Origin: Clostridia bacterium
GTDB taxonomy: Bacteria > Bacillota > Clostridia > Oscillospirales > Acutalibacteraceae
Direction: 5' to 3'
Assembly (NCBI GenBank): GCA_017410325.1
Contig: JAFQRA010000010.1
Location: forward strand, 80,183-144,182
DNA: 64,000 bases
Shown: piece by piece, positions 40,859 through 60,516 of the stretch
Layout: every line of letters starts with the position of its first letter
Position numbering within the stretch: position 1 is the first letter of the stretch
Program-made: the position numbers and the translations under genes
The notes under the pieces: generated by a model
The model's database searches: none
Seen by the model: the letters and a program-made list of their open reading frames with translations, nothing else
Told to the model about the DNA's origin: nothing

Positions 40859-40892
40859 ATTATAGCAAAACATCAGTCCCATAAAACGGACT
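40859..40892 (-). promoter_or_regulatory. Shared box + -10: ATPase-nuclease operon
   Basis: Perfect palindrome AGTCC-N8-GGACT (40875-40892), then 11 bases to TATAAT (40859-40864) on the minus strand; no -35 match. One of seven such promoters. Confidence 0.8.
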
Positions 40893-41001
40893 CTGCTTTG
40901 ACAATTCTATGTTATACTATGTCGTGTACCGAAAACGCCCCACCAAACTATTGTATAATGCAAACATAAGTGATATATTGAAACTAACGGAGGTAATCAA
41001 T

Positions 41002-42066
41002 ATGGATTCCATGCAACCGAAAAAGCTTATAATTATGAATATTCTCGCTGTACTCAGGAAATACAGCGACGAGAATCACCGCATGAGTCAGAAAGAGATC
41101 GCGAAAAAACTCGAATCGGACCACGGTATGAAGGTTGACCGCAAGGCTGTCAAGCGCAATCTTATGAACCTGATGACGTACGGTCTGGAGATTGAATGCA
41201 GCGAAACAACCAGAATGGTTAAGAATCCGCACACAGGCGAAATGGAAGAAAGCTCCATTCTTACCGATTTTTATATTGTCCGTGATTTTACGGATGCTGA
41301 ACTTCGACTATTGATTGACAGCCTGCTTTTTTCAAAGCACATCCCCTATTCCCAATGCAAAGAATTAATCGAAAAAATCGAGGGGCTTTCAAACAAATAT
41401 TTTCTTTCCAAGGTGAAGCACATCTGCAATCTGCCCGAAAATCTGCCGCAGAACAAAGAGCTGTTCTACACTATCGAGATGCTTGACGAAGCAATCAGCG
41501 AAGGCAGACAGGTCAGCTTCAAGTATAACCGATACGGTACGGACAAAAAGCTTCATCCCCGTCAGTCGAGCAACGGCGAAGACAGGATTTATATAGTTAA
41601 TCCCTACCAGATGGTAGCTACCAACGGCAGATATTACCTTGTCTGTAATTATGACAAGTACGATAATATCGCCAACTACCGTGTGGATATGATTACAGAT
41701 ATTAAAGTGCTCGACTCTCCCGTAAAGCCCAAAAAGCAAGTCAGAGGACTTGAAGCCGGACTCGACCTGCCCAAGCATATGGCAGAGCACATTTATATGT
41801 TCAGCGACGAAACCGTCAGGGTTAGGTTTATTGCAAAGAAATACATCGTCGGCGAAATCATTGATTGGTTCGGCAAGGACGTAAAGTTCTCAAATGAAAC
41901 GGAAGACGAAGTCACCGCAGAAGTTAGAGTCAGCGCAATGGCAATGAAATTCTGGGCATTGCAGTACGCCCCGCACATCACCGTAACCGAACCCAAAACT
42001 TTAAGAGAAGAAATAGGAACCGAACTACGCAAAGCAGCAGAGAGATACGGAAAGTTAGGGGAATAA
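41002..42066 (+). CDS. WYL-domain transcriptional regulator 1
   Basis: A 354-residue regulator with an N-terminal winged HTH (KKLIIMNILAVLRKYSDENH to about residue 70) and a WYL ligand-binding domain from about 165. The WYL region includes VSFKYNRYG, YIVNPYQMVATNGRYYLVC and the C-terminal WCX-type module. WYL proteins sense nucleic-acid-like ligands and often control defence genes. GGAGG precedes the ATG at 41002. It is divergent from the ATPase-nuclease operon, with the shared palindrome lying between them, and contiguous with the UDG-like gene. Confidence 0.9.
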   Translation: MDSMQPKKLIIMNILAVLRKYSDENHRMSQKEIAKKLESDHGMKVDRKAVKRNLMNLMTYGLEIECSETTRMVKNPHTGEMEESSILTDFYIVRDFTDAELRLLIDSLLFSKHIPYSQCKELIEKIEGLSNKYFLSKVKHICNLPENLPQNKELFYTIEMLDEAISEGRQVSFKYNRYGTDKKLHPRQSSNGEDRIYIVNPYQMVATNGRYYLVCNYDKYDNIANYRVDMITDIKVLDSPVKPKKQVRGLEAGLDLPKHMAEHIYMFSDETVRVRFIAKKYIVGEIIDWFGKDVKFSNETEDEVTAEVRVSAMAMKFWALQYAPHITVTEPKTLREEIGTELRKAAERYGKLGE

Positions 42067-42068
42067 TT

Positions 42069-42707
42069 ATGTATGACTTTTTAAAAAACTCAAATGGTGA
42101 ATATGTTGAAGGTTACCTGAGTTCAGAAAAAGATTTCAATGGAGTCGTTTTCTTGCTCCGCGAACCAAACAACAAAAGTAAAGACGATATAGATTCTCCA
42201 AAACAAGTTACAGAGGAATTCTGGTTTAAAAAAGTTCTTGATGATTTTGATTCATATCATAAAGAATTAAAGCTTAAAAACGAACCCGACGATAAAATAG
42301 TGAAAAGTAAAAGGGCTGCAACAAAATATATAAACCGATTTAAAGAAATGCTTAAAGCAGCAAAATTTGATGAGAGTTTCATATTTAACGCCGCTTTTTG
42401 TAATATCCATCCGCAATATGGAAAAACATATAAAACAAAGGCATACTGTGAGCTTTTGAAAACTCGTCCGGCAGAAATTTTAGAATATTTATCATCCGCA
42501 CATTCAAATATTACTATTTTTACTTGCAGAGATATTTACGAGCAATTAAAAAAGGAAAAATCTTTGCAACTGTTACAAGAAGACGATGGTTTTGTTTATA
42601 AAAGAAACCCTTTGAAAAAATTTTCAGCAAAATATAACTCTTGCAATATTATTGTTTATGAAATATATCACCCTTCGTTTAGTGGAAGAATAATTAACAA
42701 AACGTAA
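42069..42707 (+). CDS. Uracil-DNA-glycosylase-like protein
   Basis: A 212-residue protein starting 2 bases after the regulator stop. VVFLLREPNN near 26-35 and IIVYEIYHPSFSGRI near 195-209 resemble the first and last motifs (GxxPG-like and HPS) of the UDG superfamily, and ITIFTCRDIYEQL between them fits its core strand. The catalytic Asp is not obvious, so it may be a nucleic-acid-binding relative. Assignment is by motif impression only. A strong terminator follows. Confidence 0.5.
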   Translation: MYDFLKNSNGEYVEGYLSSEKDFNGVVFLLREPNNKSKDDIDSPKQVTEEFWFKKVLDDFDSYHKELKLKNEPDDKIVKSKRAATKYINRFKEMLKAAKFDESFIFNAAFCNIHPQYGKTYKTKAYCELLKTRPAEILEYLSSAHSNITIFTCRDIYEQLKKEKSLQLLQEDDGFVYKRNPLKKFSAKYNSCNIIVYEIYHPSFSGRIINKT

Positions 42708-42729
42708 TATCTATTATGCACCAAAAACA

Positions 42730-42772
42730 AACCATCTCTTTTGGTATTCTTACCTCAAGAGATGGTTATTAT
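42730..42772 (+). terminator. Terminator after the UDG-like gene
   Basis: Perfect 11-base stem AACCATCTCTT / AAGAGATGGTT, 16-base loop, followed by ATTATTTTT. Confidence 0.8.
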
Positions 42773-42789
42773 TTTTAAAGGTGATATTT

Positions 42790-43590: not shown

Positions 43591-43735
43591 AATTACTGTT
43601 TATCAGTTATCAGCATCACCAATCTGTCATACTGTCAGTAACAGGCGGTTCATATATATTTCCATTTGCTTATTTAATTATGCTCCAATCTTCAGTCAAT
43701 AAGATTACGTTTGTATATTCATCTCTCTGCCTGTT

Positions 43736-43774
43736 ACAGAGCCTCGTTTCTGCCCATTCGAGGCTCTGTTTTTC
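43736..43774 (+). terminator. Intergenic stem-loop terminator
   Basis: Perfect stem ACAGAGCCTCG / CGAGGCTCTGT with a 12-base loop and TTTTTC tail. Confidence 0.75.
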
Positions 43775-43963: not shown

Positions 43964-44629
43964 TCAGTTTTTCTTGCCTCTGCGGATGTAGTCTTCGTTG
44001 ATTTCGTGGCTCCAGTCTTCGCAGAGAGGGGCTTTTGCCCTTACGTTGCAGACAGCTTTTGCAACTGTCTCATACACAATGCTCGTACCCTCTTTATCGG
44101 CGTTGTAGTTTACCGCTCTGTCGGCACCGATGCCATATCTCGAAGCGGTTTCAACAGCATCGATATTAGCACCGATGAAGAGAAACTCCCAACCGTATTT
44201 TTCCTTCTGCCGCTCAATCATAGCTTTCACTTTTCCGCTCGAATACTTGCGGCTTGCGTTTTCCATACCGTCTGTTGTGATTACAAACATTGTGTTTTCG
44301 GGCACGTCTTCGGGGCGAGCATACTTATGAATGTTGCCTATGTGGTGAATCGCACCGCCGAGCGCATCAATCAGCGCAGTACAGCCTCTGACGGTATAAT
44401 CTTCATCTGTCATCGGCTTGATTTCACTCAGTCGTACTCTGTCGTGAAGCACTTCGCTCACACCGTCGAAAAGCACGGTTGATACAAAGCATTCGCCGTC
44501 CTGCTTTTTCTGCTTTTCAATCATAGCGTTGAATCCGCCGATTGTGTCTGCTTCAAGCCCAACCATAGAGCCGCTTCTGTCAAGGATAAATACAAGCTCC
44601 GTAACGTTGTTTCTGATTTTTTCTTTCAT
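43964..44629 (-). CDS. vWA-domain protein (TerY-like)
   Basis: A 221-residue stand-alone von Willebrand A domain. ELVFILDRSGSM gives the MIDAS DxSxS (Asp17, Ser19, Ser21), with CTALIDALGGA carrying the metal Thr and TTDGMENAS the distal Asp. Similar TerY-type proteins accompany stress and defence modules and often work with kinases or phosphatases as scaffolds. AAAGGAG lies 9 bases before the ATG. Cotranscribed after the ADP-ribosylglycohydrolase (20-base gap). Confidence 0.86.
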   Translation of the reverse strand: MKEKIRNNVTELVFILDRSGSMVGLEADTIGGFNAMIEKQKKQDGECFVSTVLFDGVSEVLHDRVRLSEIKPMTDEDYTVRGCTALIDALGGAIHHIGNIHKYARPEDVPENTMFVITTDGMENASRKYSSGKVKAMIERQKEKYGWEFLFIGANIDAVETASRYGIGADRAVNYNADKEGTSIVYETVAKAVCNVRAKAPLCEDWSHEINEDYIRRGKKN

Positions 44630-44648: not shown

Positions 44649-45584
44649 TTATTCTTCAAATAAGTCTATCGGCTGAATTCCGCCGCAGTCTGTCAGATAC
44701 CCGTCATCTTCCGCATATTCGCCAAGGTGATATTTCTTGCGTATTTCCTCGGAGAAATAATCACCCGGCTCGGAATATCGAAATTCGGCTTTGTTCTTTT
44801 CCATAAAAGCTTCAAATTCTTCTGCAATACCCAGCAGATATTCATCAAGATAAGAAAGCGCCGTTTCTTTTATTTCTTCATCAATACCGTAATACGCCTG
44901 GGCGATTGAGCCTGCGATGGCAGCGATTGTGTCGCTGTCGCCGCCGATTGAAATTGCGTTTCTGATTGTGTCCTCAAACGACGTAGATTCAAAAAACGCT
45001 TCAAACGCCTGCGGCACGGACTTCTGACAGCTTACTTCAAACTCATACTCCTCACGGATTTCATCGAGCGTGAAATCAATGGTGTAGAACTTGCTGACAT
45101 ATTCCTTTATTTCGTCCATTGTGTGACCGGTTCTCGCAAGGTAAATCGCACCTGCAACGGACACAGCGCCTTTGATTCCCTCGGGGTGGTTGTGAGTAAC
45201 TTCTGCCGTTGCACGGGCAAGCTTTTCGCACTCTTCAAGTGAAGAAGCAAACCACGCAACGGGTGAAACTCTCATTGCAGAGCCGTTGCCGTAGCTGTTG
45301 TACGGCTCTATACAAGCATATTTCAGCCACATATAAAATCTTCCGCCGTAACCGCAGCCCATATACCTGCCGCCCACCTTGTGCATCACTTTGACAAGGT
45401 GATTTTTAAACTCTTCATAATCTGTGATTTCATCATAGTCTGCCAGAGCCTTTGCAACTGCAAGAGTCATAACGGAATCATCCGTAAAATCGCACTCCGG
45501 GCTGAACAGCTCAAACTCCTTTGATTTGTGGTCATCAAACTCAAACCTTGAACCTACAATATCGCCTATAATAGCACCCAACAT
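44649..45584 (-). CDS. ADP-ribosylglycohydrolase family protein
   Basis: A 311-residue DraG/ARH-type hydrolase: GAIIGDIVGSRFEF at the start, DFTDDSVMTLA (near 32-42) with the metal-binding Thr/Asp pair, and GGDSDTIAAIAG near 222-233 completing the dinuclear magnesium site. It would remove ADP-ribose from proteins or nucleic acids. It lies in a run of ADP-ribose-related genes (macrodomain gene upstream), which suggests reversal of a toxin or defence modification. Confidence 0.9.
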   Translation of the reverse strand: MLGAIIGDIVGSRFEFDDHKSKEFELFSPECDFTDDSVMTLAVAKALADYDEITDYEEFKNHLVKVMHKVGGRYMGCGYGGRFYMWLKYACIEPYNSYGNGSAMRVSPVAWFASSLEECEKLARATAEVTHNHPEGIKGAVSVAGAIYLARTGHTMDEIKEYVSKFYTIDFTLDEIREEYEFEVSCQKSVPQAFEAFFESTSFEDTIRNAISIGGDSDTIAAIAGSIAQAYYGIDEEIKETALSYLDEYLLGIAEEFEAFMEKNKAEFRYSEPGDYFSEEIRKKYHLGEYAEDDGYLTDCGGIQPIDLFEE

Positions 45585-45692: not shown

Positions 45693-46253
45693 TTATTTGC
45701 TGAAAGTATTTTCCACCAAAGCACAATATTCCTGATATGCAGTATACTCTTCCAGCTCCGAAAGGCAATCGGCAATACTCTGATAATACCAACAATGCTC
45801 ATTTTTATCCTTCTGATTAAATCTGTTCCACAGTTCATCACCAAATGCTTTATAGTCACGGTTAATGGCACGTATATTGGAAAGTTTATCGCCGAGAGTA
45901 ATCATCTTTATTTCCTTTGATGCTGATTTCAGATGAATCAGCGTTTCTTTTTTGCGTATTTTCCACGTAGATTCAGCAGATAAATTTTCCCGTTTGTTTT
46001 CACTTTCTGCACCCACATACTCAGCCACCTTTTCACCAAACAGCTCTTTTACTTTTTCTATTGTTGTTTCGGTATCTTCAACAACATCGTGCAAAACAGC
46101 TGCAGCAAGAACGGAATCATCATCAGTCATTGTTGCCGCAACGGCAGCAGCCTCTAACGGATGCAGAATATACGGAATCTGTGTTCCTTTTCTGAACTGA
46201 CCGTCATGTGCCTCAACAGCATAAGCTATAGCCCGATTCAACAGTGTACCCAT
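45693..46253 (-). CDS. HD-domain hydrolase, RelA/SpoT-hydrolase-like
   Basis: A 186-residue protein resembling small (p)ppGpp hydrolases: His31 in YILHPLEAA, the HD pair His55-Asp56 in AAVLHDVVEDT, and ITLGDKLSNIRAI with the distal Asp. No synthetase domain. It could hydrolyse (p)ppGpp or a related nucleotide made in a stress or defence response. AGGAGG lies before the ATG; 30 bases separate it from the macrodomain gene upstream. Confidence 0.85.
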   Translation of the reverse strand: MGTLLNRAIAYAVEAHDGQFRKGTQIPYILHPLEAAAVAATMTDDDSVLAAAVLHDVVEDTETTIEKVKELFGEKVAEYVGAESENKRENLSAESTWKIRKKETLIHLKSASKEIKMITLGDKLSNIRAINRDYKAFGDELWNRFNQKDKNEHCWYYQSIADCLSELEEYTAYQEYCALVENTFSK

Positions 46254-46283: not shown

Positions 46284-47351
46284 TCAGCAGCCCAGCAGCA
46301 TCTGGTCAAACTCGAATAATGCTTCGTTTATTACAAAAACATCGTACTCGCCTTTCTGGATAAAGTAGCGGATGATTTTGTCGAAGGCAAAACTGCGGGA
46401 AAGTGTAAGACCTGCTGACGAGAGCAGATCCTGCGTTTCGTCAAGGCTGAGTTCAAGCGCAATAGCAAAGGCAACTGCGGTCTGTTTTGATGGCTTGTAG
46501 CTTTGCGGATTGCACTTGATTTTTGAGAAAGTCTTTTTATCAACGTTGGCTTTTTTGTAGCACTCAACGTCGGTCATACCCTTGCTGTCGATATAATCAA
46601 AGAGCTTATACGCAAAGGATTTGTCCATCGCCTTCATATATTCTTCGAGCGATTTACCGGCAATACTGCTGCACGGTGGTGGCACCGACGCACACGGCAT
46701 CATTTCCGCAACGTAACATTCGGAAAAATCTGCCGTTATTGTTTCATCCTCGCAAACATCGCGCCTGCGTGCTGAAGCACCCTTATTAAATCTCAGCGTA
46801 AAGCATGATCCAGCTTTTTTTCTTGCGGCATAACCGTCATCAATAAACTCGCTGATTTCATTGAAAAGCTCTTTGCTGAATTCGTATGAGCTGCGGTCAA
46901 AAACGCAGAGATATACCGTCAGCTCGTGCTCAAACAGAAAGTCGGTTATAACCTGAATTGCAAACCTCAACACCTTATCCTTCGGGTAACCGTAAGCGCC
47001 TGCGGAGATAAGCGGAAACGCAACGGATTCACAGCCGTTTTCAACTGCAAGCTTTAATGACTCAAGGTAGCAGGATTTTAAAATTATACTCTCACCTTCA
47101 AGACCGCCCTGCCATACTGGACCGGAAGTATGGATTATGTACTTTGCATCAAGATTATATGCTTTCGTTACCTTCGCTGTGCCGAGCCCGAGCGGAGCAA
47201 TGCGCTGACACTCTTTATCAAGTTCAGGTCCCGCAGCGGTGTGTACAGCATAGTCAACACCGCTGTACCCAATCATTTCTTCGTTGGTGGTGTTTACTAT
47301 GGCATCAACCTTCATTTTAGTTATATCCTGTCGGATAATCTGCAACGGCAT
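46284..47351 (-). CDS. Macrodomain protein with C-terminal helical domain
   Basis: A 355-residue fusion. Residues 1-170 form a macrodomain: VDAIVNTTNEEMIGYSGVDYAVHTAAG, YIIHTSGPVWQGG and the loop PLISAGAYGYPKD, which bind ADP-ribose. The C-terminal ~110 residues (SFAYKLFDYIDSKGMTDVECYKKANVDKK onward) look like a helix-turn-helix-type regulatory or binding domain found on several stress proteins. The start has GGGGTGATAAA upstream, just after the WYL regulator stop, so it is in the regulator operon. Confidence 0.87.
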   Translation of the reverse strand: MPLQIIRQDITKMKVDAIVNTTNEEMIGYSGVDYAVHTAAGPELDKECQRIAPLGLGTAKVTKAYNLDAKYIIHTSGPVWQGGLEGESIILKSCYLESLKLAVENGCESVAFPLISAGAYGYPKDKVLRFAIQVITDFLFEHELTVYLCVFDRSSYEFSKELFNEISEFIDDGYAARKKAGSCFTLRFNKGASARRRDVCEDETITADFSECYVAEMMPCASVPPPCSSIAGKSLEEYMKAMDKSFAYKLFDYIDSKGMTDVECYKKANVDKKTFSKIKCNPQSYKPSKQTAVAFAIALELSLDETQDLLSSAGLTLSRSFAFDKIIRYFIQKGEYDVFVINEALFEFDQMLLGC

Positions 47352-47366
47352 TTTATCACCCCGTTA

Positions 47367-48353
47367 TTATTTATACATTTGTGTAAGCCGTTTAAGTTGA
47401 TTTTTCATTTCGTCTTTGACGGATTCGGGCGAGAGAATTTCAGCCTCTGTGCCGAAGCCGAAAACCCAGGCAAGAAAATGCGTGCTCGGCACGACATCTA
47501 CATTTACTATAAAGTGTTCTTCACCGTCGGGAATGAGCATAGTGTCCTTGCCGAAGCGGTCAATCACAACGCCTGCGAGACGGTTGGCAAAGCGTAGTTT
47601 GACCTTGACATCTTCGCCGCCGAACATACCAAAAACAGTTTTGGTGTACGCCGACATATCGAAGCCTTCAAACGCCTTGCTGCCCTCTCTTGCTTCGTCA
47701 GTCACTTCAACGCCGTACATTTTGTCAACGCGGTAGTGCTTCATCTTCTGCGCTGCCGAATCCCATGCAAGCATATAATAGTTTTCATCGTCCCATATAA
47801 GTGCAAACGGACTGACATTATAAACCGCACCGTCATGGCGGAATTTGCGCTCCTTGCTGACGGTGTATTCAAAATATTTATACCTGATTTTTTTGTTCTG
47901 CGCTATCGCATCCGAAACAGCATCAACGGCATAGTATATGCTTTCGTTCATGCTCTTGACCCTGTTCTTGACGTAAACCTGCCTTTGCAGAAGCTGACCG
48001 TCATAGATACTTGCAAGATTTTCAATTTTCTTAATCAGCTTATAAGTTTTTTCTTCTGTAATGAATTTTGAAGACTGAACGCTGTCAACAAGAAGCTTGA
48101 GCTCGGGCAGTTCAAAATCACGCTCGCCGATATAATATCCGCCGTTTTTACCGCCGATGTGGTTTACATCAAGCCCGAATACCCTGAGCGACTCCATATC
48201 GTCATAAATGCTCTTACGCTCGGCAGAAATTCCGTTGCGGTTAAGTTCTTCCAGAATCTGATCCATTTTTACCGGATGATTCTCATCCGAATTATTCATC
48301 AGCAGTTTTGTGATGTATAACAGCTTCAGTTTCTGGTTTGCGGATTTTGCCAT
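47367..48353 (-). CDS. WYL-domain transcriptional regulator 2
   Basis: A 328-residue WYL regulator: N-terminal HTH (KLKLLYITKLLMNNSDENHPVKMDQILEELN), middle WYL domain with KKIRYKYFEYTV, NVSPFALIWDDENYYMLAWD and a C-terminal WCX-like part. It is the first gene of the macro-HD operon. Its own promoter carries the shared box (48,399-48,414) with GTAC half-sites, so autoregulation is likely. ATG at 48353 is preceded by GGGG. It is the best candidate to bind the boxes. Confidence 0.9.
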   Translation of the reverse strand: MAKSANQKLKLLYITKLLMNNSDENHPVKMDQILEELNRNGISAERKSIYDDMESLRVFGLDVNHIGGKNGGYYIGERDFELPELKLLVDSVQSSKFITEEKTYKLIKKIENLASIYDGQLLQRQVYVKNRVKSMNESIYYAVDAVSDAIAQNKKIRYKYFEYTVSKERKFRHDGAVYNVSPFALIWDDENYYMLAWDSAAQKMKHYRVDKMYGVEVTDEAREGSKAFEGFDMSAYTKTVFGMFGGEDVKVKLRFANRLAGVVIDRFGKDTMLIPDGEEHFIVNVDVVPSTHFLAWVFGFGTEAEILSPESVKDEMKNQLKRLTQMYK

Positions 48354-48381: not shown

Positions 48382-48414
48382 ATTATACATCATTATCTGT
48401 ACAATAACAAGTAC
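48382..48414 (-). promoter_or_regulatory. Shared box + -10: WYL regulator 2 operon
   Basis: GTAC-N8-GTAC (48399-48414), 11 bases, TATAAT (48382-48387) on the minus strand; lies 25 bases from the oppositely oriented sbcD box. Confidence 0.78.
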
Positions 48415-48439: not shown

Positions 48440-48472
48440 GTCCGTTTTATTGTACACATATACTGATATAAT
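48440..48472 (+). promoter_or_regulatory. Shared box + -10: sbcDC
   Basis: GTCC-GTTTTATT-GTAC (48440-48455), 11 bases, TATAAT (48467-48472); no recognisable -35 hexamer. Confidence 0.8.
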
Positions 48473-48535: not shown

Positions 48536-49672
48536 ATGAAACTATTTCACTTATCCGACCTGCATATCGGCAAGAGAGTAAATGAATTCTCTATGCTTGA
48601 GGACCAGGAATATATACTCAAAAAAATTATCAATGTTATTGATGACGAAAAGCCCGATGCTGTGCTTATAGCAGGCGATGTTTACGACAAGTCCGTACCG
48701 TCTGCCGAAGCGGTACAGCTTTTTGACAGCTTTCTAACGGACCTTGCAAAGCGAAAGCTGCACACCTTCATTATCAGTGGCAACCACGATTCTGCCGAGC
48801 GGCTTGCTTTCGGCGGCAGACTTATGGAGCTGAGCGGCGTACATATGTCCCCGGTTTATTCCGGTGAAGTTTTGCCCGTAAGCCTTGAGGATGAAAACGG
48901 CAAGGTAAAATTTTATATGCTCCCGTTTATCAAGCCTGCCAATGTGCGCAGATTTTTTGAAGAAGAAGCGATTGAAAGCTACACAGACGCTGTGCGCATT
49001 GCAGTGGAGAATATGAATATCAACACAGCCGAGCGAAATGTTATCGTCACACACCAGTTTGTAACCGGCGCAGAAAGAAGCGAATCGGAAGAGGTTTCTG
49101 TCGGCGGCTCGGACAACGTTGACGCAATCGTTTTTGACGGGTTTGATTATGTTGCACTGGGTCATATTCACTCTCCGCAGAATATCGGCAGCGAAAGAAT
49201 CCGCTACTGCGGCACTCCGCTTAAATATTCATTCTCCGAAGTCAAGCATAATAAGAGCGTAACTGTTGTCAACCTCGGCAAGAAGGGTGAGCTTGAAATC
49301 CGCACCGTACCGCTTATCCCTAAGCACGATATGCGCGAAATCAAGGGCAAGTATGATGATATTGTATTAAAAGAAAACTATGAGGGCACCGACACAGACG
49401 ACTATATGCACATCACCCTCACAGACGAGGACGATATCCCCGACGCATTAGGCAAGCTGCGCTCCATTTACCCCAATCTTATGAAAATTGACTACGACAA
49501 CAAGCGCACGCGAAGCAGCTCAAGCCTTGATGTAACAGATAATATTGAGCAGAAATCTCCTCTGGAGCTTTTCTGCGAGCTTTACAAAAAACAGAACGGT
49601 CAGACAATGAGCGATGAACAGCTCACATTTTCAAAACAGCTTATCGAAAGCATATGGGAGGGCGAAAAATGA
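48536..49672 (+). CDS. sbcD: Exonuclease subunit SbcD (Mre11-like)
   Basis: A 378-residue calcineurin-type phosphoesterase: SDLHIGK (7-13), GDVYDK, SGNHDSAERL and GHIHSP with the dinuclear metal ligands. It is the nuclease of the SbcCD complex that opens hairpins and processes DNA ends. ATG at 48536 has ACGGAGG 8 bases upstream, so the 13-residue extension from 48497 is rejected. Stop and sbcC start overlap (ATGA). Confidence 0.95.
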   Translation: MKLFHLSDLHIGKRVNEFSMLEDQEYILKKIINVIDDEKPDAVLIAGDVYDKSVPSAEAVQLFDSFLTDLAKRKLHTFIISGNHDSAERLAFGGRLMELSGVHMSPVYSGEVLPVSLEDENGKVKFYMLPFIKPANVRRFFEEEAIESYTDAVRIAVENMNINTAERNVIVTHQFVTGAERSESEEVSVGGSDNVDAIVFDGFDYVALGHIHSPQNIGSERIRYCGTPLKYSFSEVKHNKSVTVVNLGKKGELEIRTVPLIPKHDMREIKGKYDDIVLKENYEGTDTDDYMHITLTDEDDIPDALGKLRSIYPNLMKIDYDNKRTRSSSSLDVTDNIEQKSPLELFCELYKKQNGQTMSDEQLTFSKQLIESIWEGEK

Positions 49673-52442: not shown

Positions 52443-52475
52443 GTCCTTTTTATTGGACACGACTTATGTCATAAT
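52443..52475 (+). promoter_or_regulatory. Shared box + -10: 52522 operon
   Basis: Perfect GTCC-TTTTTATT-GGAC (52443-52458), 11 bases, CATAAT (52470-52475); starts three bases after the sbcC stop. Confidence 0.8.
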
Positions 52476-52521: not shown

Positions 52522-53436
52522 ATGAACACAGAGAAAGAAATCATCGTACTTATGGGCAGCTCAGAGTATCACGAAAGACTCACCTTTAACAAGCCGGCAC
52601 CCGCCGAAACCGTTCTCGCCATCAATTTCTACTGTGACGAGCTCGTTAACCGTGCCGGCAACCCTGCCGAAGATGAAGACATCAAGGCAAGCGCTTACCT
52701 CATCGTTGACGGTGTCCGCACCGACCTTACCGACTCCCAGGCCTTCCTTGCATCCGCCGGAAAGCTTTCAGATGCAGAAGCCTTTGAGCTTGACGTTCGT
52801 CTTGATGCTCACTACCGTTCAGCTGTTTACAATGCACACCCCGAAGATGACGAAGAGGGTGACGGCACAGGAGAAATCGTAACGTTCTTCAGCGACGGTC
52901 TTCTTAACCATTTAAGCTCCCTTGAAAACGTTGACGGCTTTGAGTACAAGCATATTGCTTTTTACCCCAACAGCAGTGAGTTCGGCTATTTCAAAATCAA
53001 GGACAGCAAGCGTATCGATATTGACGGTATGGCAAACAAGGAATTCCCTCTTGCAATCAAGGATACAGCACCCTGGTACTCATATAATATGGGCTTGTCA
53101 TACAACCTTGACAGCATCACAGATGAGCAGGCTGAAAAGGTCCACGAAATCGTAAAAAGATACGTTCCCGAATCGGAAATAGAGTATTGCTCAGATTACT
53201 GGGAGGATGATAACTCAATCATTCTCGGCTGTATCCAGTGGACACCCGAAAACTTCACAAAGGTTGCAGAGTTCCTCGCTGAACTCAATGCCGCTGTTGA
53301 AAACCCTGCACTTGAAAGCTATATGCCCACAGCTGCCGCAACATCTTTTAACGCATGGTTTGATATGGAAAACTTCGGTATCATCTTCATGGACGAAACC
53401 GACGGTAAATTCTCTCTCCTCGGCACAGATTTCTGA
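52522..53436 (+). CDS. Acidic protein of unknown function, box-controlled
   Basis: A 304-residue soluble, strongly acidic protein with no recognised domain. Patterns visible are DDEEGDGTGEIVTFF near 110-124, a WEDDNSIILGCIQW segment, and several aromatic-Asp-Asn turns. AAGGAG precedes the ATG, and the gene sits directly behind a shared box. It is followed 26 bases later by the DUF2779 nuclease gene, so the two probably function together. DNA mimicry or a scaffold role is conceivable but not shown. Confidence 0.6.
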   Translation: MNTEKEIIVLMGSSEYHERLTFNKPAPAETVLAINFYCDELVNRAGNPAEDEDIKASAYLIVDGVRTDLTDSQAFLASAGKLSDAEAFELDVRLDAHYRSAVYNAHPEDDEEGDGTGEIVTFFSDGLLNHLSSLENVDGFEYKHIAFYPNSSEFGYFKIKDSKRIDIDGMANKEFPLAIKDTAPWYSYNMGLSYNLDSITDEQAEKVHEIVKRYVPESEIEYCSDYWEDDNSIILGCIQWTPENFTKVAEFLAELNAAVENPALESYMPTAAATSFNAWFDMENFGIIFMDETDGKFSLLGTDF

Positions 53437-53462: not shown

Positions 53463-54944
53463 ATGGCACTTCATCTTTCAAAATCAAAATACTGCAACGC
53501 TGTACAATGCCCGAAAATGCTGTGGCTCAACAAATACAAACGGGAAGAATTTGACGAATCCGTTATGAATCAGGCCGTACTTGAAACGGGTAACGCAGTT
53601 GGCGACCTTGCCATGGGCCTGCTTGGTGATTATGTTGAAGTGCCTTTCGGTGACCTTGGCGATATGATAAACGAAACCCAAAGGCTGCTTGACGAAGGCA
53701 CGCCAATAATTGCGGAAGCATCGTTTTCATACGAAGGACTTTTCTGCAGCGTGGATATACTCAAAAACAAGGGCAACGGTCATGTTGAGATTTACGAGGT
53801 CAAAAGTTCAACAAAGCTCAGCGAAATTTATCTGCACGACGTTGCTTATCAGCAGTATGTGCTTGAAGGCTTAGGCTACAAGGTTGACGGAGCAAAGCTT
53901 GTGCACATCAACCCCGAGTATGTCCGCCATGGTGAAATTAATCTTAACGAGCTTTTTGTAATCAACAATATAAAGGTCGATACAGATGCTTTGCAGAGCA
54001 GCGTCAGAAATTATATCCCCGAGCTCGAAGAGATTATGAGCAACGGCGTTGAGCCCGAGATACCTGTCGGCTGCCATTGCCACACACCCTACGCCTGCGG
54101 TTTTTTCGATTACTGCACAGGACGTCTGCCCCACCCCAATGTTTTTGATGTCAGCCGTCTTGGTTTTGACAAGAAAATAAATTTCTATAACGACGGCGAC
54201 TACACCTTTGAGCGCCTTGCACAGCGCAAGGAAATAAAGGGTACTCAGCGCCTGCAGGTTGAATCGCATTTAAGCGGTCAGGGCACAATCAACCCGAAGG
54301 AAATAGCAAAGCTTCTCGACACACTTTCGTTTCCGCTTTATTTTCTGGACTTTGAAACCTTCCAGGAGGCAATACCTCCCTTTGACAACACAAAGCCGTA
54401 TGAGCAGATTCCGTTCCAGTATTCTCTGCATTGGCTTGACAGCCCCGACGGTGATCTGAAGCACACCGAATTTCTGGCGCAGGCAGGCACAGACCCACGC
54501 AGAGCACTTGCCGAAAAGCTGTGTGCAGATATTCCGTGCGGAGTCTGCACCACCGCCTACAATATGAGCTTTGAAAAGAATGTCATCAAAAAGCTGGCAG
54601 AAATTTATCCCGACCTTGCCGACCACCTGATGGACATTCACGACAATATAAAGGACCTTATGCTTCCTTTCCAGAAAAAGCACTACTACCTGCCCGAAAT
54701 GCAGGGCTCATACTCTATCAAATATGTTCTTCCTGCGCTTTATCCAACCGAGCCTTCGCTCGATTACCACAACCTCGAGGGCATACAGAAAGGCGACCAG
54801 GCGGCAAACGCCTTCAGCGCAATGAAGCGTATGACACCCGAAAAAGTCACCGAAACAAGAAAACAGCTCCTCGCCTACTGTAAGCTCGACACCTTCGCAA
54901 TGGTAAAGCTTTGGGAGAAGCTGACTCAGACATCAAAAGAATAA
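53463..54944 (+). CDS. DUF2779 protein: Cas4-like nuclease plus DEDD-like exonuclease
   Basis: A 493-residue two-part protein. The N-terminal part has SKYCNAVQCPKMLWL and GHVEIYEVKSST, giving the E-x-K of a PD-(D/E)XK nuclease, with Cys at 11, 16 and a later HCHTPYACGFFDYC cluster, comparable to Cas4/AddB-type iron-sulfur nucleases. The C-terminal part has LYFLDFETFQEAIP and AYNMSFEKNVIKKLA, typical of RNase H-like DEDD exonucleases. A likely nucleic-acid processing enzyme of the box regulon. Confidence 0.82.
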   Translation: MALHLSKSKYCNAVQCPKMLWLNKYKREEFDESVMNQAVLETGNAVGDLAMGLLGDYVEVPFGDLGDMINETQRLLDEGTPIIAEASFSYEGLFCSVDILKNKGNGHVEIYEVKSSTKLSEIYLHDVAYQQYVLEGLGYKVDGAKLVHINPEYVRHGEINLNELFVINNIKVDTDALQSSVRNYIPELEEIMSNGVEPEIPVGCHCHTPYACGFFDYCTGRLPHPNVFDVSRLGFDKKINFYNDGDYTFERLAQRKEIKGTQRLQVESHLSGQGTINPKEIAKLLDTLSFPLYFLDFETFQEAIPPFDNTKPYEQIPFQYSLHWLDSPDGDLKHTEFLAQAGTDPRRALAEKLCADIPCGVCTTAYNMSFEKNVIKKLAEIYPDLADHLMDIHDNIKDLMLPFQKKHYYLPEMQGSYSIKYVLPALYPTEPSLDYHNLEGIQKGDQAANAFSAMKRMTPEKVTETRKQLLAYCKLDTFAMVKLWEKLTQTSKE

Positions 54945-55037: not shown

Positions 55038-55070
55038 GTCCGTTTTATTGTACTTATAATATGATAAAAT
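55038..55070 (+). promoter_or_regulatory. Shared box + -10: zinc-ribbon gene
   Basis: GTCC-GTTTTATT-GTAC (55038-55053), 11 bases, TAAAAT (55065-55070); box sequence identical to that before sbcD. Confidence 0.8.
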
Positions 55071-55102: not shown

Positions 55103-55702
55103 ATGGCAAGGAAATCACAACAAAAGCAAACATACTCAACAATTAAATGCTCTCATTGCTCCTATGAGTATTCCGAGAGTTTAAAATATTGTCCCAATTG
55201 CAGCGAGTCTACCGCTACAAGCAAATCAAAATACAGGCTCAATCGGTTTCAGGAACATCAGCACAAAAAAATTTGCGCTCACGAAATAGCCGGATACTCC
55301 GTAGTTGCGTTGGTTCTTGTAATACTTTTTCTGGGCCTTGTTGCCGCTTACTCTTTTATTTCATCAGGACCGGTTAAGATTTCGCTTATCATTGCTTCGG
55401 CAATTGTTGTACCTGCCGCAATAATAATGGTTACCATCAAAGCAGCAGACCTTATAAAGGACAAAAAGAAAACGAAAATACTTGCTCAGTTCTATAAAGA
55501 TAACACAAGCATCTGTCCCTCTTGCGGCTGCCAGAAAATTTCCTTTGGCCGCAGAGGTTACAATTGGAATTATGCATACTGGGGAGACATTTTCAACATA
55601 AAGGGCTCGCAATATATAGCCGGTATGAATTCACGTCAGGTTATAGCTTACTGCAACCGCTGCGGACACAGCTGGAATACGCACAGAGAATGGCTCAGTT
55701 AA
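55103..55702 (+). CDS. Membrane protein with two zinc ribbons
   Basis: A 199-residue protein: N-terminal ribbon (KCSHCSY and KYCPNCSE), two membrane helices (near 66-88 and 92-114), and a C-terminal ribbon (SICPSCGCQ and YCNRCGHSW). Both ribbons face the same side if the helices form a hairpin, presumably the cytoplasm. The fold suggests binding of nucleic acid or a partner at the membrane; no catalytic motif is seen. Monocistronic under a shared box. Confidence 0.72.
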   Translation: MARKSQQKQTYSTIKCSHCSYEYSESLKYCPNCSESTATSKSKYRLNRFQEHQHKKICAHEIAGYSVVALVLVILFLGLVAAYSFISSGPVKISLIIASAIVVPAAIIMVTIKAADLIKDKKKTKILAQFYKDNTSICPSCGCQKISFGRRGYNWNYAYWGDIFNIKGSQYIAGMNSRQVIAYCNRCGHSWNTHREWLS

Positions 55703-55780: not shown

Positions 55781-57904
55781 TCATTTGTCTTCCAGCATAT
55801 AAACAGAAACCTTTGTTTCAACATATACTTCGTCAGAGCTCTTGCCATAAGAGTTCTGTTCCGATATCGGTTCGTTTACTATTGCAATGAACTCTTTGCC
55901 TGCATCCATCATTCTTGCAAGCATTTCGTTTTTGGTACGGGCTAAAAAACCGATTTTGTCATTATCATCAAGATAAACGGCAACCGCATTTTTATCGTAC
56001 TCGTTATACGGTTCTCTTACAAGCTTAAGTATATCGCCCGGTTTGAGCTCGCGGAGTTTTTCACGCTCTGAATCACTCTCAATGTAATACTTCATACCGG
56101 AAATTTTGCTCTCAAGCACATAAATCTTATTCTGTATGTCTATAATCCTTTTATCCTGTACAGGTGCTTGAGTTTCCTTCGTCTCAAACACATAACCTGC
56201 ATCAATTGTTCCGCCGGCGGCAAGGAAATCCTGAACGGTAATTGTTACAAGGTCCTTGTCCGTCGGAAAGGCTTTTGAAACAACACGTCCTGCTTGTTTT
56301 TCCACAAGCTTTTCAAAGAAATTGCGCACCTCTCTGCCGTTGGCAAAATTATCACCACGGTTTTCGTAAACGGAATCAAAATACTTCCTGATGACCTTAT
56401 CCAGTCCGTCCTGTAGCTGATACTGATTTTTCTTCAGCTGAAGTTTGAAAATCGCATAAAGCTCATCGCCGGAATAATCGGGGAAATAAACATACTTATT
56501 AAACCTGGATTTAAGGCCCGGATTTGAATTGATGAATTTTTTCATCGGCTCCGGATAGCCTGCTACAATAACAATAAATTCGTCGCGATGGTCTTCCATT
56601 TCCTTGAGTATTGTCTCTATAGATTCCTGCCCGAAGTCCTTTGTACCAGCGCTTTCAGCATAAAGAGAATATGCTTCATCGATAAACAGAACACCACCCA
56701 TTGCAGAGTCGATAACTTCCTGTGTTTTCATTGCTGTCTGTCCGACATAGCCTGCAACCAGTTCACTTCTGTCGACCTCCACACAATGACCTTTTTCAAG
56801 ATAGCCGAGCTTGTTATAAATTTTGCCTATCAGCCTTGCAACCGTTGTTTTACCTGTACCGGGATTGCCGAGAAACACAAGGTGCTGTGAGGTATCGGGA
56901 ACTTTTATATCACGCTTTTTACGCATCTGACTTACACGGATCAGATTTGTAAGGTTAGCTACCTCCGCCTTGACACTTCCGAGACCAATCAGCTCGTTAA
57001 GTTCTTTCATATAGTCTTCAAGTGTTTCCGGCTTCTGCTGCTTTTCAGCCGTCCCGGTGCTTTCCTCTTCCTCCTCGGAATCCTCTTCTATGCAATCGTT
57101 TTCCTCGTATTTGTCATCATCTTTCGGCTTGTTGGATTTTGTGTTTTTTGTTGAACGGTTCTGTATAAAGTCTTCAAAATCGGTTCTGGCTGATTTGCTG
57201 CTTTGAGCTGCTGCCTTGCTCTGGCGGTCTTTTTCTTCCATAAACCGTTCAGTACCGCCTTCAGCCATAAACAAACCGAACGGCATAGCACCTCTCGGTG
57301 CTCCGTTTTCAACGCAGTCTATTACGCTCAGCAGAGCTACTTCAATTTCGGCTCTGTGTCCTTCATCTTCAAGCTTTGCTATCCATTTACTGATATAGTC
57401 AATACCCGCAGAGGTCATTTCCCATTTCGCATTACTGTATGAAACTACAGTCGTCAGCAGTTCGTAAAGGTTGATTTTCGGTTTGTTTTCATCCCTGTCA
57501 TTCTGCATATACAGGTTTATCAGAGTTTCGGCAAGCTCAAATTCCTCATCATAAACAAGTTGTGCAATAAACTTTTCGGCATCAAGATGGTTCTCGTACG
57601 CATCAAGCCTGTAAACATGTTCACGTATAATTTCACTTGATTTAAACGCTTTCTTCAAAGCGCCATAGTCTGCTGTTTCTATTACGTGGTTGGTAAGAGG
57701 TGTATAATTAACGGGGTGTTTACAGTTTACATATTTCTGGAGCATATACTCCCACATGCGGATACCTTCATCCAGATCTTCTTTAAGCATTACGGCTATA
57801 ATGTCTTCTGTTATGGTGTATTGCAGAGTAAAACCATCTCTGTCAAGATAACGGTCTTTCAGCTTTTCAAATCTTTCTTTCAGGAGTTCTGCCTTTTTTG
57901 ACAT
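55781..57904 (-). CDS. CbbX/SpoVK-type AAA ATPase fused to a HIRAN domain
   Basis: A 707-residue fusion. Residues 1-220 are helical (TPR-like) with no recognised fold; 225-300 is an acidic, Lys/Glu-rich linker; 310-560 is an AAA domain with GNPGTGKTT (346-354), GVLFIDEAYSL and SNPGLKSRF (arginine finger). The C-terminal 90 residues (ELKPGDILKLVREPYNEYDKN, IGFLARTKNEMLARM) match HIRAN domains, which bind DNA 3' ends in HLTF-type proteins. A motor coupled to a DNA-end sensor is the likely reading. GGGAGG precedes the ATG. Confidence 0.85.
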   Translation of the reverse strand: MSKKAELLKERFEKLKDRYLDRDGFTLQYTITEDIIAVMLKEDLDEGIRMWEYMLQKYVNCKHPVNYTPLTNHVIETADYGALKKAFKSSEIIREHVYRLDAYENHLDAEKFIAQLVYDEEFELAETLINLYMQNDRDENKPKINLYELLTTVVSYSNAKWEMTSAGIDYISKWIAKLEDEGHRAEIEVALLSVIDCVENGAPRGAMPFGLFMAEGGTERFMEEKDRQSKAAAQSSKSARTDFEDFIQNRSTKNTKSNKPKDDDKYEENDCIEEDSEEEEESTGTAEKQQKPETLEDYMKELNELIGLGSVKAEVANLTNLIRVSQMRKKRDIKVPDTSQHLVFLGNPGTGKTTVARLIGKIYNKLGYLEKGHCVEVDRSELVAGYVGQTAMKTQEVIDSAMGGVLFIDEAYSLYAESAGTKDFGQESIETILKEMEDHRDEFIVIVAGYPEPMKKFINSNPGLKSRFNKYVYFPDYSGDELYAIFKLQLKKNQYQLQDGLDKVIRKYFDSVYENRGDNFANGREVRNFFEKLVEKQAGRVVSKAFPTDKDLVTITVQDFLAAGGTIDAGYVFETKETQAPVQDKRIIDIQNKIYVLESKISGMKYYIESDSEREKLRELKPGDILKLVREPYNEYDKNAVAVYLDDNDKIGFLARTKNEMLARMMDAGKEFIAIVNEPISEQNSYGKSSDEVYVETKVSVYMLEDK

Positions 57905-57982
57905 ATACGAGTCCTCCCACCCATAGATAAACTATTCTGGAACAATAATATCATTTACTTTTTATTATTTCAACAATTAATA

Positions 57983-58285
57983 TCAGAAATCATCTATATC
58001 ATACCCTGCGTCTGAAAGTGCTTCGGCTCGTTCGTCGTCACTCATCAGCTCAAAATCATACGCATCAATTCCGGCGTCGTCAAGTGCATCCTCAAGCTCT
58101 GTTGTTCCGCCAAAGCCTGAATATCCGTAGCCACCCGATGTGCTGCTCTTGCTTTCCTTGTTGGATTTTTCTGATTCATCCATCATATGCATAAAGAAGC
58201 CGAACTCTGCCGCTTTTTCAAACGAATCCATTTTACCGTCGTTGTTAAAATCGAACATACCGCCGAATAAACCCTTATCAAACAT
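57983..58285 (-). CDS. Small EF-hand protein
   Basis: A 100-residue acidic protein with one clear calcium loop DFNNDGKMDSFE at 12-23, a Gly/Ser linker and an acidic C-terminal repeat (LEDALDDAGIDAYDFELM, then SDAGYDIDDF). Its N-terminus resembles that of the next gene upstream, suggesting duplication. GAGG lies before the ATG. It precedes the AAA-HIRAN gene by 78 bases. EF-hand proteins in such a bacterial operon are unusual. Confidence 0.7.
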   Translation of the reverse strand: MFDKGLFGGMFDFNNDGKMDSFEKAAEFGFFMHMMDESEKSNKESKSSTSGGYGYSGFGGTTELEDALDDAGIDAYDFELMSDDERAEALSDAGYDIDDF

Positions 58286-58290
58286 GGCTG

Positions 58291-58881
58291 TTACCTCACA
58301 TTAGTTTTTTCTGTTTTAATTTCTTCTTTGATATCGCATTGCCTCTTATAAAAGTTTTCTTTTTCAGTATCACTCATATCGAAAAATCCTGAAATATGCA
58401 GCATCTTATCATAATATCCCATAGCTATCAGTTTCTGATAACTCGGGTTGTTTCTGTCTACATATACTCCACAGCCTTCAGGATAGTCTGCATCATATTT
58501 TCTCCGAAGCATTCTGCTCCGGAATTCAGGATGAAAATCTTCAAAGTAAAACGGATATATATCTTCATTATCCTCCCCACAGAACTCTTTCAGATCATAT
58601 TCATTATATCCATGGAACTCAACCAGATAGTCGCCGGTATAATAGTTATCATATTTATCTTTTTGGTATAATGAATATTTACTGTCAGTATCTGCTGCAG
58701 CTTCTGAAGGCATATCATATGCTGCAGCATAACTATCAGCAAAGCTGCACGTGTGGTTAGTATCATCATTATCATCGTCGCTGAAAAAACGCTGGTTAAT
58801 CCACATATCACATTCAGATGCTTCCCAGAAATTCAGTTTGCCGTCTCCATCGTGATCAAACATAAAATGAAAAATGCTCAT
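58291..58881 (-). CDS. EF-hand protein with unknown C-terminal domain
   Basis: A 196-residue protein starting with a calcium loop DHDGDGKLNFWE (9-20), like the adjacent small EF-hand protein, followed by an Asp/Tyr-rich linker. The C-terminal 90 residues include GCGVYVDRNNPSYQKLIAMG and other motifs I do not recognise. AAGGAG precedes the ATG. It is cotranscribed between the NYN gene and the AAA-HIRAN gene. Confidence 0.68.
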   Translation of the reverse strand: MSIFHFMFDHDGDGKLNFWEASECDMWINQRFFSDDDNDDTNHTCSFADSYAAAYDMPSEAAADTDSKYSLYQKDKYDNYYTGDYLVEFHGYNEYDLKEFCGEDNEDIYPFYFEDFHPEFRSRMLRRKYDADYPEGCGVYVDRNNPSYQKLIAMGYYDKMLHISGFFDMSDTEKENFYKRQCDIKEEIKTEKTNVR

Positions 58882-58952
58882 CCTTCTTGTCTCCTTTTTA
58901 TCAGTTTACTGTAATCTGACATAACTACCGTAATACTTTCTGTTTCACATCA

Positions 58953-60380
58953 TCACTTACCCGCAATCTCGAGGACAAACTCACCGTCGGAATTGATTTT
59001 AAGGGTAAGTGTTTTTATGTACTTATCAAAAAGCATATCCTCTTCCGCCTTTGATACACCTGCTCTGCACGAACGGAGAACGCTTGTTAAAAGCTCCCTT
59101 GCATTGCCAAGGAAGAACCTGTCACTGATTATCTTTTCGAGCTCGGAACGGAACACAATATTAAAGAATCTGTCGTCGTCTGGTGTTATGAATTTATCAA
59201 GGTAGCAATAGAATACATCCTTATCACGCAGAAGTGTTTTAAATTCGTGTCCGCATTTTTCGCTTTCAACCATTACAAGATATCTGACATCCTCCGAGGC
59301 ATCAATAACGGACCAGAAATCCGAATCACTTGAAACGAGAATTACAGAATCAACGTCATCCTTATAAATCGCTTTCGACACGCCCATAACGAGCCGGTGA
59401 TCAACAAGTGATTTATTTTCGACAATACGCTCAACCGGTACTGTCTCAACCTCAATTCCGTAAGTAAAGTGCTTGAGCATGGTCCATGCTTTTGTGGTAT
59501 GCTCGCTGTCATAATAAACAACTATCTTGTTTATTTTTTCAATTTCGTGGTCCTTCAGGCTTTCGATGGCTGAAGCAAATCTGTATGGGTCAGCGTTTTC
59601 GCCGTCGATAAAAACCTGAATTTTTGAGGATCTGTTTATAAATTCATTTATGTTGTTTTTTACGTTGTCGCTTGCGTCGCAGACTCTGTCATTGTCGGTA
59701 AAAACCTCGTTGCCATTCATATAAATTACGCTGAGCAGATCCTGATCAGTTGCAAGTATATAGCCGCAGTCACAGGGTTCACGCCAGTTGAAATACCTCT
59801 GGAACGGATAAAAGCTCTGATTTGCCTGAAACTTTTTAGATTCCTCTTCAGTATTTACAGGCATTATAAACATTGCTCTGATATGCCTGAATCTTACCCA
59901 CTCCGGGAAAAGTCTTTCTGTTCTGTCAATTCTTTTAAGTATTTCGCTGTTGATTCTTTTAAGGTATTCGTTTATATCGGAATTGCCTGTAATGATATAA
60001 ACAGACATTCTGTTGAGAACTTTAAAATCTTCTTTGAATAAATCGGTTTTATCAAGAGGTACAAAGGTTGTATTCATATTTCTTAAATTTCTGCTTACCT
60101 CTTTAAAATGCAACATAAGGTTGGAACGGATGTTGTTAAGGTGTCTGATTGCTACTGCATCCTCGTTCTTTTCCAATGTTTCTTTTACCGGCAGATACTC
60201 GTCGGGGTTATCAAGTCTTTTCATTAAAGCATCCTCGCTTACACCTATCATAAAGCCAACGGTAAGAGCAATATTCTTTGAATATTTCCTGTACCCTGAC
60301 TTATCCGTTATTTCGGGTAAATCAATATTTTCTTCAATTACAATGTCCTTCAGGTCTTCCAGACTGATACGCTTTGTCAT
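58953..60380 (-). CDS. NYN-domain (PIN-like) ribonuclease
   Basis: A 475-residue protein. The middle part is an NYN domain: VFIDGENADP (Asp259 region), KIVVYYDSEHTTKAW, VDHRLVMGVSKAIYKDD and SVILVSSDSDFW, which gives the acidic PIN-type active site for RNA cleavage. The N-terminal 240 and C-terminal 90 residues are unassigned. An in-frame ATG at 60416 lies inside the -10 hexamer (60415-60420) and cannot be used, so ATG 60380 with AGGAG is the start. First gene of the box-controlled EF-hand/AAA operon. Confidence 0.82.
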   Translation of the reverse strand: MTKRISLEDLKDIVIEENIDLPEITDKSGYRKYSKNIALTVGFMIGVSEDALMKRLDNPDEYLPVKETLEKNEDAVAIRHLNNIRSNLMLHFKEVSRNLRNMNTTFVPLDKTDLFKEDFKVLNRMSVYIITGNSDINEYLKRINSEILKRIDRTERLFPEWVRFRHIRAMFIMPVNTEEESKKFQANQSFYPFQRYFNWREPCDCGYILATDQDLLSVIYMNGNEVFTDNDRVCDASDNVKNNINEFINRSSKIQVFIDGENADPYRFASAIESLKDHEIEKINKIVVYYDSEHTTKAWTMLKHFTYGIEVETVPVERIVENKSLVDHRLVMGVSKAIYKDDVDSVILVSSDSDFWSVIDASEDVRYLVMVESEKCGHEFKTLLRDKDVFYCYLDKFITPDDDRFFNIVFRSELEKIISDRFFLGNARELLTSVLRSCRAGVSKAEEDMLFDKYIKTLTLKINSDGEFVLEIAGK

Positions 60381-60414
60381 AATGCTTTTATCTCCTCTTT
60401 CTTTGATTGTACTC

Positions 60415-60447
60415 ATTATAGCAAGTTAAGTGTCCAATAAAACTCCC
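60415..60447 (-). promoter_or_regulatory. Shared box + -10: NYN operon
   Basis: GGGA-GTTTTATT-GGAC (60432-60447) with one degenerate half-site, 11 bases, TATAAT (60415-60420) on the minus strand. Confidence 0.75.
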
Positions 60448-60483
60448 TTGATTTTGCACTGAGCGCAAATTCCGTCCATTTGA

Positions 60484-60516
60484 GTCCGTTTTAACGTACA
60501 CCTGATGCGATATACT
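60484..60516 (+). promoter_or_regulatory. Shared box + -10: 60571 gene
   Basis: GTCC-GTTTTAAC-GTAC (60484-60499), 11 bases, TATACT (60511-60516); divergent from the NYN box 36 bases away. Confidence 0.78.

Follow-up and report, generated by a model that had tools for sequence, protein, structure and literature searches.

A putative LexA-independent regulon of clostridia, under a DriD-like WYL activator, that spans DNA repair and phage defence

The island and its boxed promoters

The window analysed here, a stretch of 64,000 nucleotides from an assembly of a Clostridia bacterium of the family Acutalibacteraceae (GCA_017410325.1, contig JAFQRA010000010.1, positions 80,183 to 144,182), contains a gene island with two WYL-domain proteins, WYL1 and WYL2, the sbcD and sbcC genes, and a series of ATPases, nuclease-like proteins, ADP-ribose-related proteins and acidic proteins (Table 1). 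Seven promoters of the island carry a common 16-base box, and it is this box, a predicted operator of WYL2, that forms the subject of the present analysis. An initial annotation of the DNA had already listed the seven copies, and a position weight matrix (PWM) scan combined with sequence inspection found them all at the positions and on the strands claimed, facing the genes named, with the box ending exactly 11 bases upstream of the -10 hexamer in 7/7 promoters. At a threshold of at least 12 bits, the scan of the window returned these seven boxes at 30-41 bits and a single further match of 16 bits within the AAA-HIRAN gene.

Other parts of that description apply to a subset of the promoters. 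The shared pattern GTCC-N8-GKAC is exact in five of the seven boxes, box 2 reading GTAC-N8-GTAC and box 6 GGGA-N8-GGAC, and the central eight bases, said to be usually of one sequence, are exactly GTTTTATT in three. The lack of a recognisable -35 element holds for six promoters, which match TTGACA at two or three of six positions at a spacing of 17, and fails for the WYL2 promoter, where TTGTTA matches at four. Extended -10 elements (TGn) were recognised by eye in five of the seven window promoters and are present in 27 of the 74 sites of the wider set described below.

Table 1. Boxes and genes of the island (window coordinates).
Feature	Coordinates	Strand	Remarks
Box 1	40876..40891	-	GTCCGTTTTATGGGAC; -10 TATAAT 40859-40864; upstream of AAA ATPase and 491-aa partner
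Box 2	48399..48414	-	GTACTTGTTATTGTAC; -10 TATAAT 48382-48387; WYL2 operon promoter; TTGTTA at -35
Box 3	48440..48455	+	GTCCGTTTTATTGTAC; -10 TATAAT 48467-48472; upstream of sbcD-sbcC
Box 4	52443..52458	+	GTCCTTTTTATTGGAC; -10 CATAAT 52470-52475
Box 5	55038..55053	+	GTCCGTTTTATTGTAC (as box 3); -10 TAAAAT 55065-55070
Box 6	60432..60447	-	GGGAGTTTTATTGGAC; -10 TATAAT 60415-60420; upstream of NYN/EF-hand/AAA-HIRAN genes
Box 7	60484..60499	+	GTCCGTTTTAACGTAC; -10 TATACT 60511-60516
491-aa ATPase partner	38429..39904	-	possible PD-(D/E)XK nuclease; D-x(12)-ELK by eye
AAA_21/OLD-like ATPase	39942..40820	-	Pfam
WYL1, second WYL-WCX protein	40909..42066	+	Pfam; 24% identical to WYL2
vWA-like protein	43964..44629	-	Pfam match below cut-off
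ADP-ribosylglycohydrolase (ADPRH)	44649..45584	-	Pfam
HD_4 domain protein	45693..46253	-	Pfam
Macro-domain protein	46284..47351	-	Pfam; adjoins WYL2 on the same strand
WYL2, wHTH-three-helix-WYL-WCX regulator	47367..48353	-	Pfam and structure model
SbcD	48536..49672	+	Pfam; start by ribosome-binding site, listed open reading frame from 48497
SbcC	49654..52440	+	Pfam
Acidic protein	52522..53436	+	no Pfam family at E 0.01
DUF2779 protein	53463..54944	+	Pfam; Cas4-like stretch at residues 14-220
Zinc-ribbon membrane protein	55103..55702	+	below-cut-off Pfam matches and a membrane segment recognised by eye
AAA ATPase with HIRAN domain	55781..57904	-	Pfam
EF-hand-like small protein	57983..58285	-	EF-hand by eye; homologue at L212 (40%) itself a box target
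EF-hand-like acidic protein	58291..58881	-	DHDGDGKLNFWE, by eye
NYN-domain protein	58953..60416	-	Pfam; reading frame as listed, later internal start likely
Acidic protein	60571..61416	+	no Pfam family at E 0.01

A conserved and oriented promoter element

Within the window, GTCC-N8-GKAC gave seven strand matches against 0.95 expected, two palindromic sites being counted on both strands so that these matches represent five sites, and GTCCGTTTTATTGKAC with at most three mismatches gave seven sites against 1.06 expected; none of 100 shuffles reached seven in either case. Across the whole genome (2.67 Mb), GTCCNTTTTATTGKAC-N11-TATAAT with at most three mismatches matched eight times and its reversed-pattern control once, the eight matches being the seven boxes of the 20-kb island and one poor match on another contig. 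A search for the box without the -10 yielded nine matches in this genome, six of them in the island and three elsewhere, against two for the control, and one of the three (L238) has no -10. The boxes of this genome hardly reach beyond the island, unlike those of relatives, which are spread over many contigs.

The motif was characterised in the best 80 of 299 relatives' WYL2 loci obtained from a scan of genome contigs. With at most four mismatches, GTCCNTTTTATTGKAC-N11-TATAAT matched 47 times in these 80 loci and the reversed control twice, and an iterated PWM at a threshold of at least 13 bits found 74 matches in the 80 loci and the window, compared with a mean of 3.0 and a maximum of 7 for ten column-permuted matrices. 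The oriented motif is GTCCKKTTTATnGGACA-N10-TATAAT, with a consensus of G T C C (G/T)(T/G) T T T A T n G (G/T) A C A (G/C) N9 TATA(A/C)T, in which the half nearest the -10 is best kept (G 99%, G 75/T 24%, A 97%, C 100%). Conservation is chiefly confined to the 16-base box, the next two bases and the -10, the remainder of the spacer being nearly free. The box occupies positions -39 to -24, which places GGAC at -27 to -24 and its GGA triplet at -26. Matches to TTGACA at a spacing of 17 among the 74 sites numbered zero of six in one site, one in 12, two in 31, three in 18 and four in 12.

The PWM had been trained on sites that included the -10, which makes spacing derived from it partly circular, and the spacing was therefore examined again with boxes selected without regard to their centre or the -10. 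Exact GTCC-N8-GGAC sites gave 104 strand readings, which amount to about 52 sites because a palindrome is read on both strands. At a spacing of 11, 28 of the readings had at least five of six TATAAT bases, and no other spacing in the range 4-21 had more than four such readings. Orientation was similarly biased, with 25 unique forward and no reversed boxes at up to one mismatch and 52 against 7 at up to three, many of the sites used for spacing and orientation being homologous WYL2 promoters and hence partly non-independent. The box is an oriented imperfect palindrome at a fixed promoter position with a mostly poor -35.

Distribution of the box and of WYL2

The initial annotation had proposed a scan of this genome and of its relatives, and in both the boxes exceed the control frequency. 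Among 200 genomes of the family, 209 matches with at most three mismatches were found in 93 genomes (control 45 in 38 genomes); in 147 genomes of the order, 150 matches with at most two mismatches fell in 64 genomes (control 3); and 148 genomes of the class held 47 matches in 25 genomes (control 5), the three sets overlapping in that G000 and several others recur. Together with the window shuffles and the genome-wide control, the order-wide control leads us to reject chance as the origin of the boxes.

The boxes might instead belong to a repeat that travels with a mobile element or a gene cassette and lacks regulatory meaning, but this is a very remote prospect. All seven boxes of the window do lie in one island, and an identical 33-base stretch of box and promoter precedes related genes in three genera (L093, L150 and L215 of G177, G145 and G190, with DUF6076 identified by Pfam on L150), which suggests horizontal transfer of box and gene together. 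Against such a repeat stand the nearly free spacer between the conserved box, its two adjoining bases and the -10, and the position of relatives' boxes on many contigs and before unrelated genes; many genomes carry boxes on several contigs, and G303 has 13 on a single chromosome. At one locus of that genome (L252, G303:C1:2343500-2349700), four boxes lie within about 1.5 kb. Downstream of three of them come ATAACGA(A/G)GGAGC and the inverted repeat GGAGC..GCTCC, and no open reading frame there is convincing, as if these boxes drove small RNAs.

The boxes follow the WYL2 family. For this comparison, a strong WYL2 was defined by a score of at least 340 bits, a cut placed by eye, and the lack of a match was judged at 1e-40 in the family and 1e-60 in the order. 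In the family, boxes are present in 38 of 50 genomes with a strong WYL2 (2.3 boxes per genome), in 39 of 86 with a weaker match only (0.83) and in 16 of 64 with none (0.36), control boxes amounting to 0.21-0.25 per genome in all three classes. The corresponding figures in the order are 48 of 63 (1.94), 8 of 21 (0.52) and 8 of 63 (0.27), with a Fisher p of 3.7e-12 (kinship ignored and WYL2's own boxes included); 48 of 63 strong-WYL2 genomes compare with 16 of 84 others. Computation thus shows that boxes are present mainly in genomes having WYL2. The box also precedes the WYL2 gene itself: 32 of the 74 PWM matches lie immediately upstream of it, in 31 of the 80 loci and in the window (30 labelled by script, with L017 and the window assigned by their protein), the rest standing before neighbouring or divergent genes, and 49 of the 80 loci have no such match on the strand of the WYL2 gene.

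These distributions also bear on whether another regulator or an alternative sigma factor reads the box, WYL2 being merely one of its targets, a reading to which we assign a low probability. Some genomes with only paralogues have boxes (the 39 of 86 in the family), and the WYL2 paralogue on contig C39 of this genome has a recognition helix, AERKALYGD, similar to that of WYL2. However, box numbers in the order fall steeply from genomes with a strong WYL2 to the other two classes, and contig C39 returned no box match in the whole-genome scan with the composite pattern. WYL2 is a likelier regulator than WYL1 because the recognition helix of WYL1 (VDRKAVKRN) differs and no box faces the WYL1 gene. 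An extracytoplasmic function (ECF) or other sigma factor was likewise judged an unlikely reader, the -10 being the housekeeping hexamer TATAAT.

WYL2 as the predicted regulator

WYL and WCX domains were detected in 27/27 WYL2 proteins and HTH_11 in 15 of them (E up to 1), and the stretch AERK-x-x-Y of the recognition helix is constant in all 27. In the structure model of WYL2 (mean predicted local distance difference test score 78, linker weak), a winged helix-turn-helix (wHTH), three helices, WYL and WCX follow one another as in DriD of Caulobacter crescentus, with which structure alignments give 16-19% identity. Compared with PDB sequences at E 0.01, WYL2 has six matches, namely four DriD entries, the unnamed 7u02 and PafC (0.0044). 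R208 and K211 of WYL2 are invariant in 27/27 proteins and stand opposite R and R of 7u02, the best-matching WYL chain, in the HMMER alignment.

Several WYL-dependent systems offer points of comparison. DriD is an SOS-independent WYL activator of about 328 amino acids, activated by single-stranded DNA (ssDNA) and built as wHTH-3HB-WYL-WCX; each of its pseudo-palindromic sites stands equally far from the -10 and overlaps with a poor -35 element, its operator is ATACGAC-N7-GTCGTAT, and its gene is not under its own control (PMC12340889). The clostridial system resembles it in domain order, the fixed distance between site and -10, poor -35 elements, a promoter region divergent from that of another operon and repair-type targets. 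It differs in its operator, GTCCKKTTTATnGGAC, and so does not have the operator expected of a DriD orthologue; it differs also in the box at the WYL2 promoter and in its targets, among which are genes of CRISPR-Cas, BREX and restriction systems. SiwR of Mycobacterium smegmatis is a homodimeric WYL activator that acts at a promoter palindrome with a conserved GGA triplet at -26, in a region that is required; it has been shown controlling one operon (PMC10693628). The same triplet lies at -26 here, and the basic WYL-domain pair R208/K211 of WYL2, likened without alignment to R204/R207 of SiwR by its spacing of three, may be a counterpart, whereas the box is found at many promoters across an order. 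PafBC of mycobacteria, a WYL heterodimer encoded in one operon, governs a damage regulon in which a -26 element replaces -35 recognition (PMC11804915), and the predicted WYL site described here similarly takes the -26 position in place of the -35; in contrast to PafBC, a single WYL gene is followed by Macro and HD genes, and WYL1 lies 5 kb away and is divergent in sequence. WYL2 and its sites thus combine features of the DriD/SiwR type, with a single-chain wHTH, linker, WYL and WCX and a pseudo-palindrome fixed relative to the -10 over a poor -35, the WYL2 promoter excepted.

WYL proteins can also repress. CapW is a WYL repressor of defence genes whose operator overlaps the -10 (PMC9122588), and WYL2 shares with CapW and BrxR the fold and the link to phage defence. 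Were WYL2 such a repressor, it would occupy the box and block extended -10 promoters until a ligand released it; the five extended -10 elements in the window could work without a -35, and comparison of the WYL2 model with known folds does not separate the activators from CapW and BrxR. We nevertheless consider repression unlikely. The box lies clear of the -10 in 7/7 promoters, unlike the CapW operators, and the named PDB sequence matches of WYL2 are activators. The 11-base spacing and the orientation are fixed over diverse genes, as contact with RNA polymerase would demand and a repressor would not need. With GGA at -26 and its domain order, the system matches DriD, SiwR and PafBC, WYL activators that respond to ssDNA, rather than CapW.

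The box is therefore probably the operator of WYL2, with WYL2 a DriD/SiwR-like transcription activator. The initial annotation had read the island as one WYL-controlled response to nucleic-acid damage or attack in which the box replaces the -35, and this is supported by non-random boxes that track the WYL2 family and precede its gene.

Genes downstream of boxes

In the island, the ATPase-nuclease pair proposed downstream of box 1 was upheld for the AAA ATPase, a homologue of which in another genus (L152, 54% identity) likewise lies downstream of a box. The nuclease assignment of its 491-aa partner finds support only in a motif recognised by eye, and the protein matched no Pfam, NCBIfam or PADLOC family at the thresholds used. 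At E 0.01, no Pfam family was matched by this partner, by either acidic protein or by the EF-hand-like proteins. With its Cas4-like stretch, the DUF2779 protein would be a PD-(D/E)XK nuclease fused to DUF2779. A locus of the same genus (L009/L220) keeps WYL2, Macro, ADPRH and vWA genes with divergent SbcDC and boxes in both directions, an exonuclease-like family gene now standing first toward sbcDC (the RNase_T match of a relative, L181, is below cut-off). A Fic/DOC-family protein (61456-62619) adjoins the island and has no box of its own.

First genes elsewhere were taken from two collections. Set 1 comprised 155 sites of at least 20 bits, 140 with a gene, from the 80 WYL2 loci, from loci found by search and from 71 regions surrounding those family sites, among the matches listed, that have at most two mismatches; the order set comprised 104 sites, 103 with an open reading frame, from 100 regions covering most of the 145 matches outside this genome. 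Genes were assigned by a simple open-reading-frame chooser, many short frames surely being wrong, and the tallies are plain counts. WYL2 itself is the first gene at 32 of 140 sites in set 1 and at two in the order set. AddB is first in six genera (L097, L172, L193, L203, L211 and L250; by Pfam on L203 and within A3, the others by BLAST cluster), six among about 259 sites against 0.13 by chance, an estimate based on one gene per about 2000. Further Pfam matches among first genes are RecA, RmuC, GyrB-like, HsdM, Cas6, Cas12a, reverse transcriptase, RlaP, HIRAN, IrrE-type peptidase, SNF2/PLD helicase, NgoFVII-like, SNF2 helicase, DnaB-like, AAA_33 kinase and ADPRH. The order-set tally of 86 first genes, from which 17 of the 103 frames, of 38-65 aa, were omitted (seven of them the GHVEV-FSAD microprotein described below), includes three XRE regulators and one BrxA not traced to its locus. 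With AddB, RecA, RmuC, HsdM, Cas6, Cas12a and BrxA among the first genes, the damage and defence theme first read from the island extends to relatives. Weighing against such a theme, first genes also include IspE-like proteins (two), Maf, a lipid kinase, S30AE, a methyltransferase, a sugar transferase and a MaoC protein, and many frames downstream of boxes belong to no family.

Small proteins recur at these positions. Microproteins of about 40-50 aa form one family with the motif YVNGHVEVYD..G.F.FSAD....EA..EL, often with AA at the end, and all 17 occurrences in the loci collected lie 54-244 nucleotides downstream of a box, at loci mostly chosen by the box (L055, L069, L072, L074, L076, L103, L126, L128, L244, L245, L246, L273, L280, L281, L286, L298 and L303). 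Small membrane proteins with one or two transmembrane segments form two families of first genes (L183/L195/L197/L272/L282/L284 and L100/L101/L113/L207/L214), and, by way of a guess, their role might correspond to that of the cell-division inhibitor DidA. Small EF-hand-like proteins are box targets in several genera (L190, L212, L264, L306 and L341), as are the two in the window.

A proposed response beside SOS

LexA and the SOS response, with RecA and repair nucleases as targets, are a functional analogy to the genes behind the box. Here the LexA-type gene lies on a separate contig, C5. Of the 200 family genomes, 168 have such a gene at E 0.001, 165 exceeding the cut-off, so the box system stands beside SOS.

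The best reading of these observations is a putative regulon, independent of LexA and under a DriD-like WYL activator, in which DNA repair and phage defence are brought together. A WYL2 dimer would bind the box at the location of the -35, anchor the housekeeping RNA polymerase and turn the promoter on, and its WYL domain may respond to nucleic acid, the likeliest signal being ssDNA that stems from DNA damage or from incoming foreign DNA. The partial -35 of the WYL2 promoter could provide basal expression that WYL2 then boosts. The outcome would be one response alongside LexA, comprising SbcCD, the ATPase/nuclease-like pair, the DUF2779 protein, the NYN, HIRAN and EF-hand proteins and the ADP-ribose (Macro/ADPRH) genes.

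Caulobacter and mycobacteria are already known to have damage regulons that WYL proteins control independently of LexA. In the literature searched, mostly open-licence titles and abstracts, no clostridial WYL damage regulon was found; work on PafBC, SiwR, DriD, Myxococcus and C. difficile LexA came up. What looks new is a DriD/SiwR-like mode of working that yet has its own operator, fast-changing targets across an order, and a mixture of repair and defence.

More tentatively, and with somewhat less than even confidence, the box might mark a second SOS in gut clostridia. This would be a WYL/ssDNA alarm that extends over the order, amplifies itself and, through a single fixed promoter architecture, jointly switches on repair (RecA, AddB, SbcCD, RmuC), adaptive and innate phage defence (Cas12a, Cas6, BREX, type I restriction-modification, reverse transcriptase) and previously undescribed microproteins (GHVEV-FSAD, EF-hand, small membrane), each genome recruiting genes by gaining a box. 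The specificity of the box (150 matches against 3 in the control among 147 genomes) allows response genes to be predicted from sequence across the order, and marks many small proteins as stress-response candidates. The box would link DNA repair to the expression of CRISPR-Cas and BREX, and cultured species offer a way of testing whether, as proposed, WYL proteins sense DNA that is damaged or invading.

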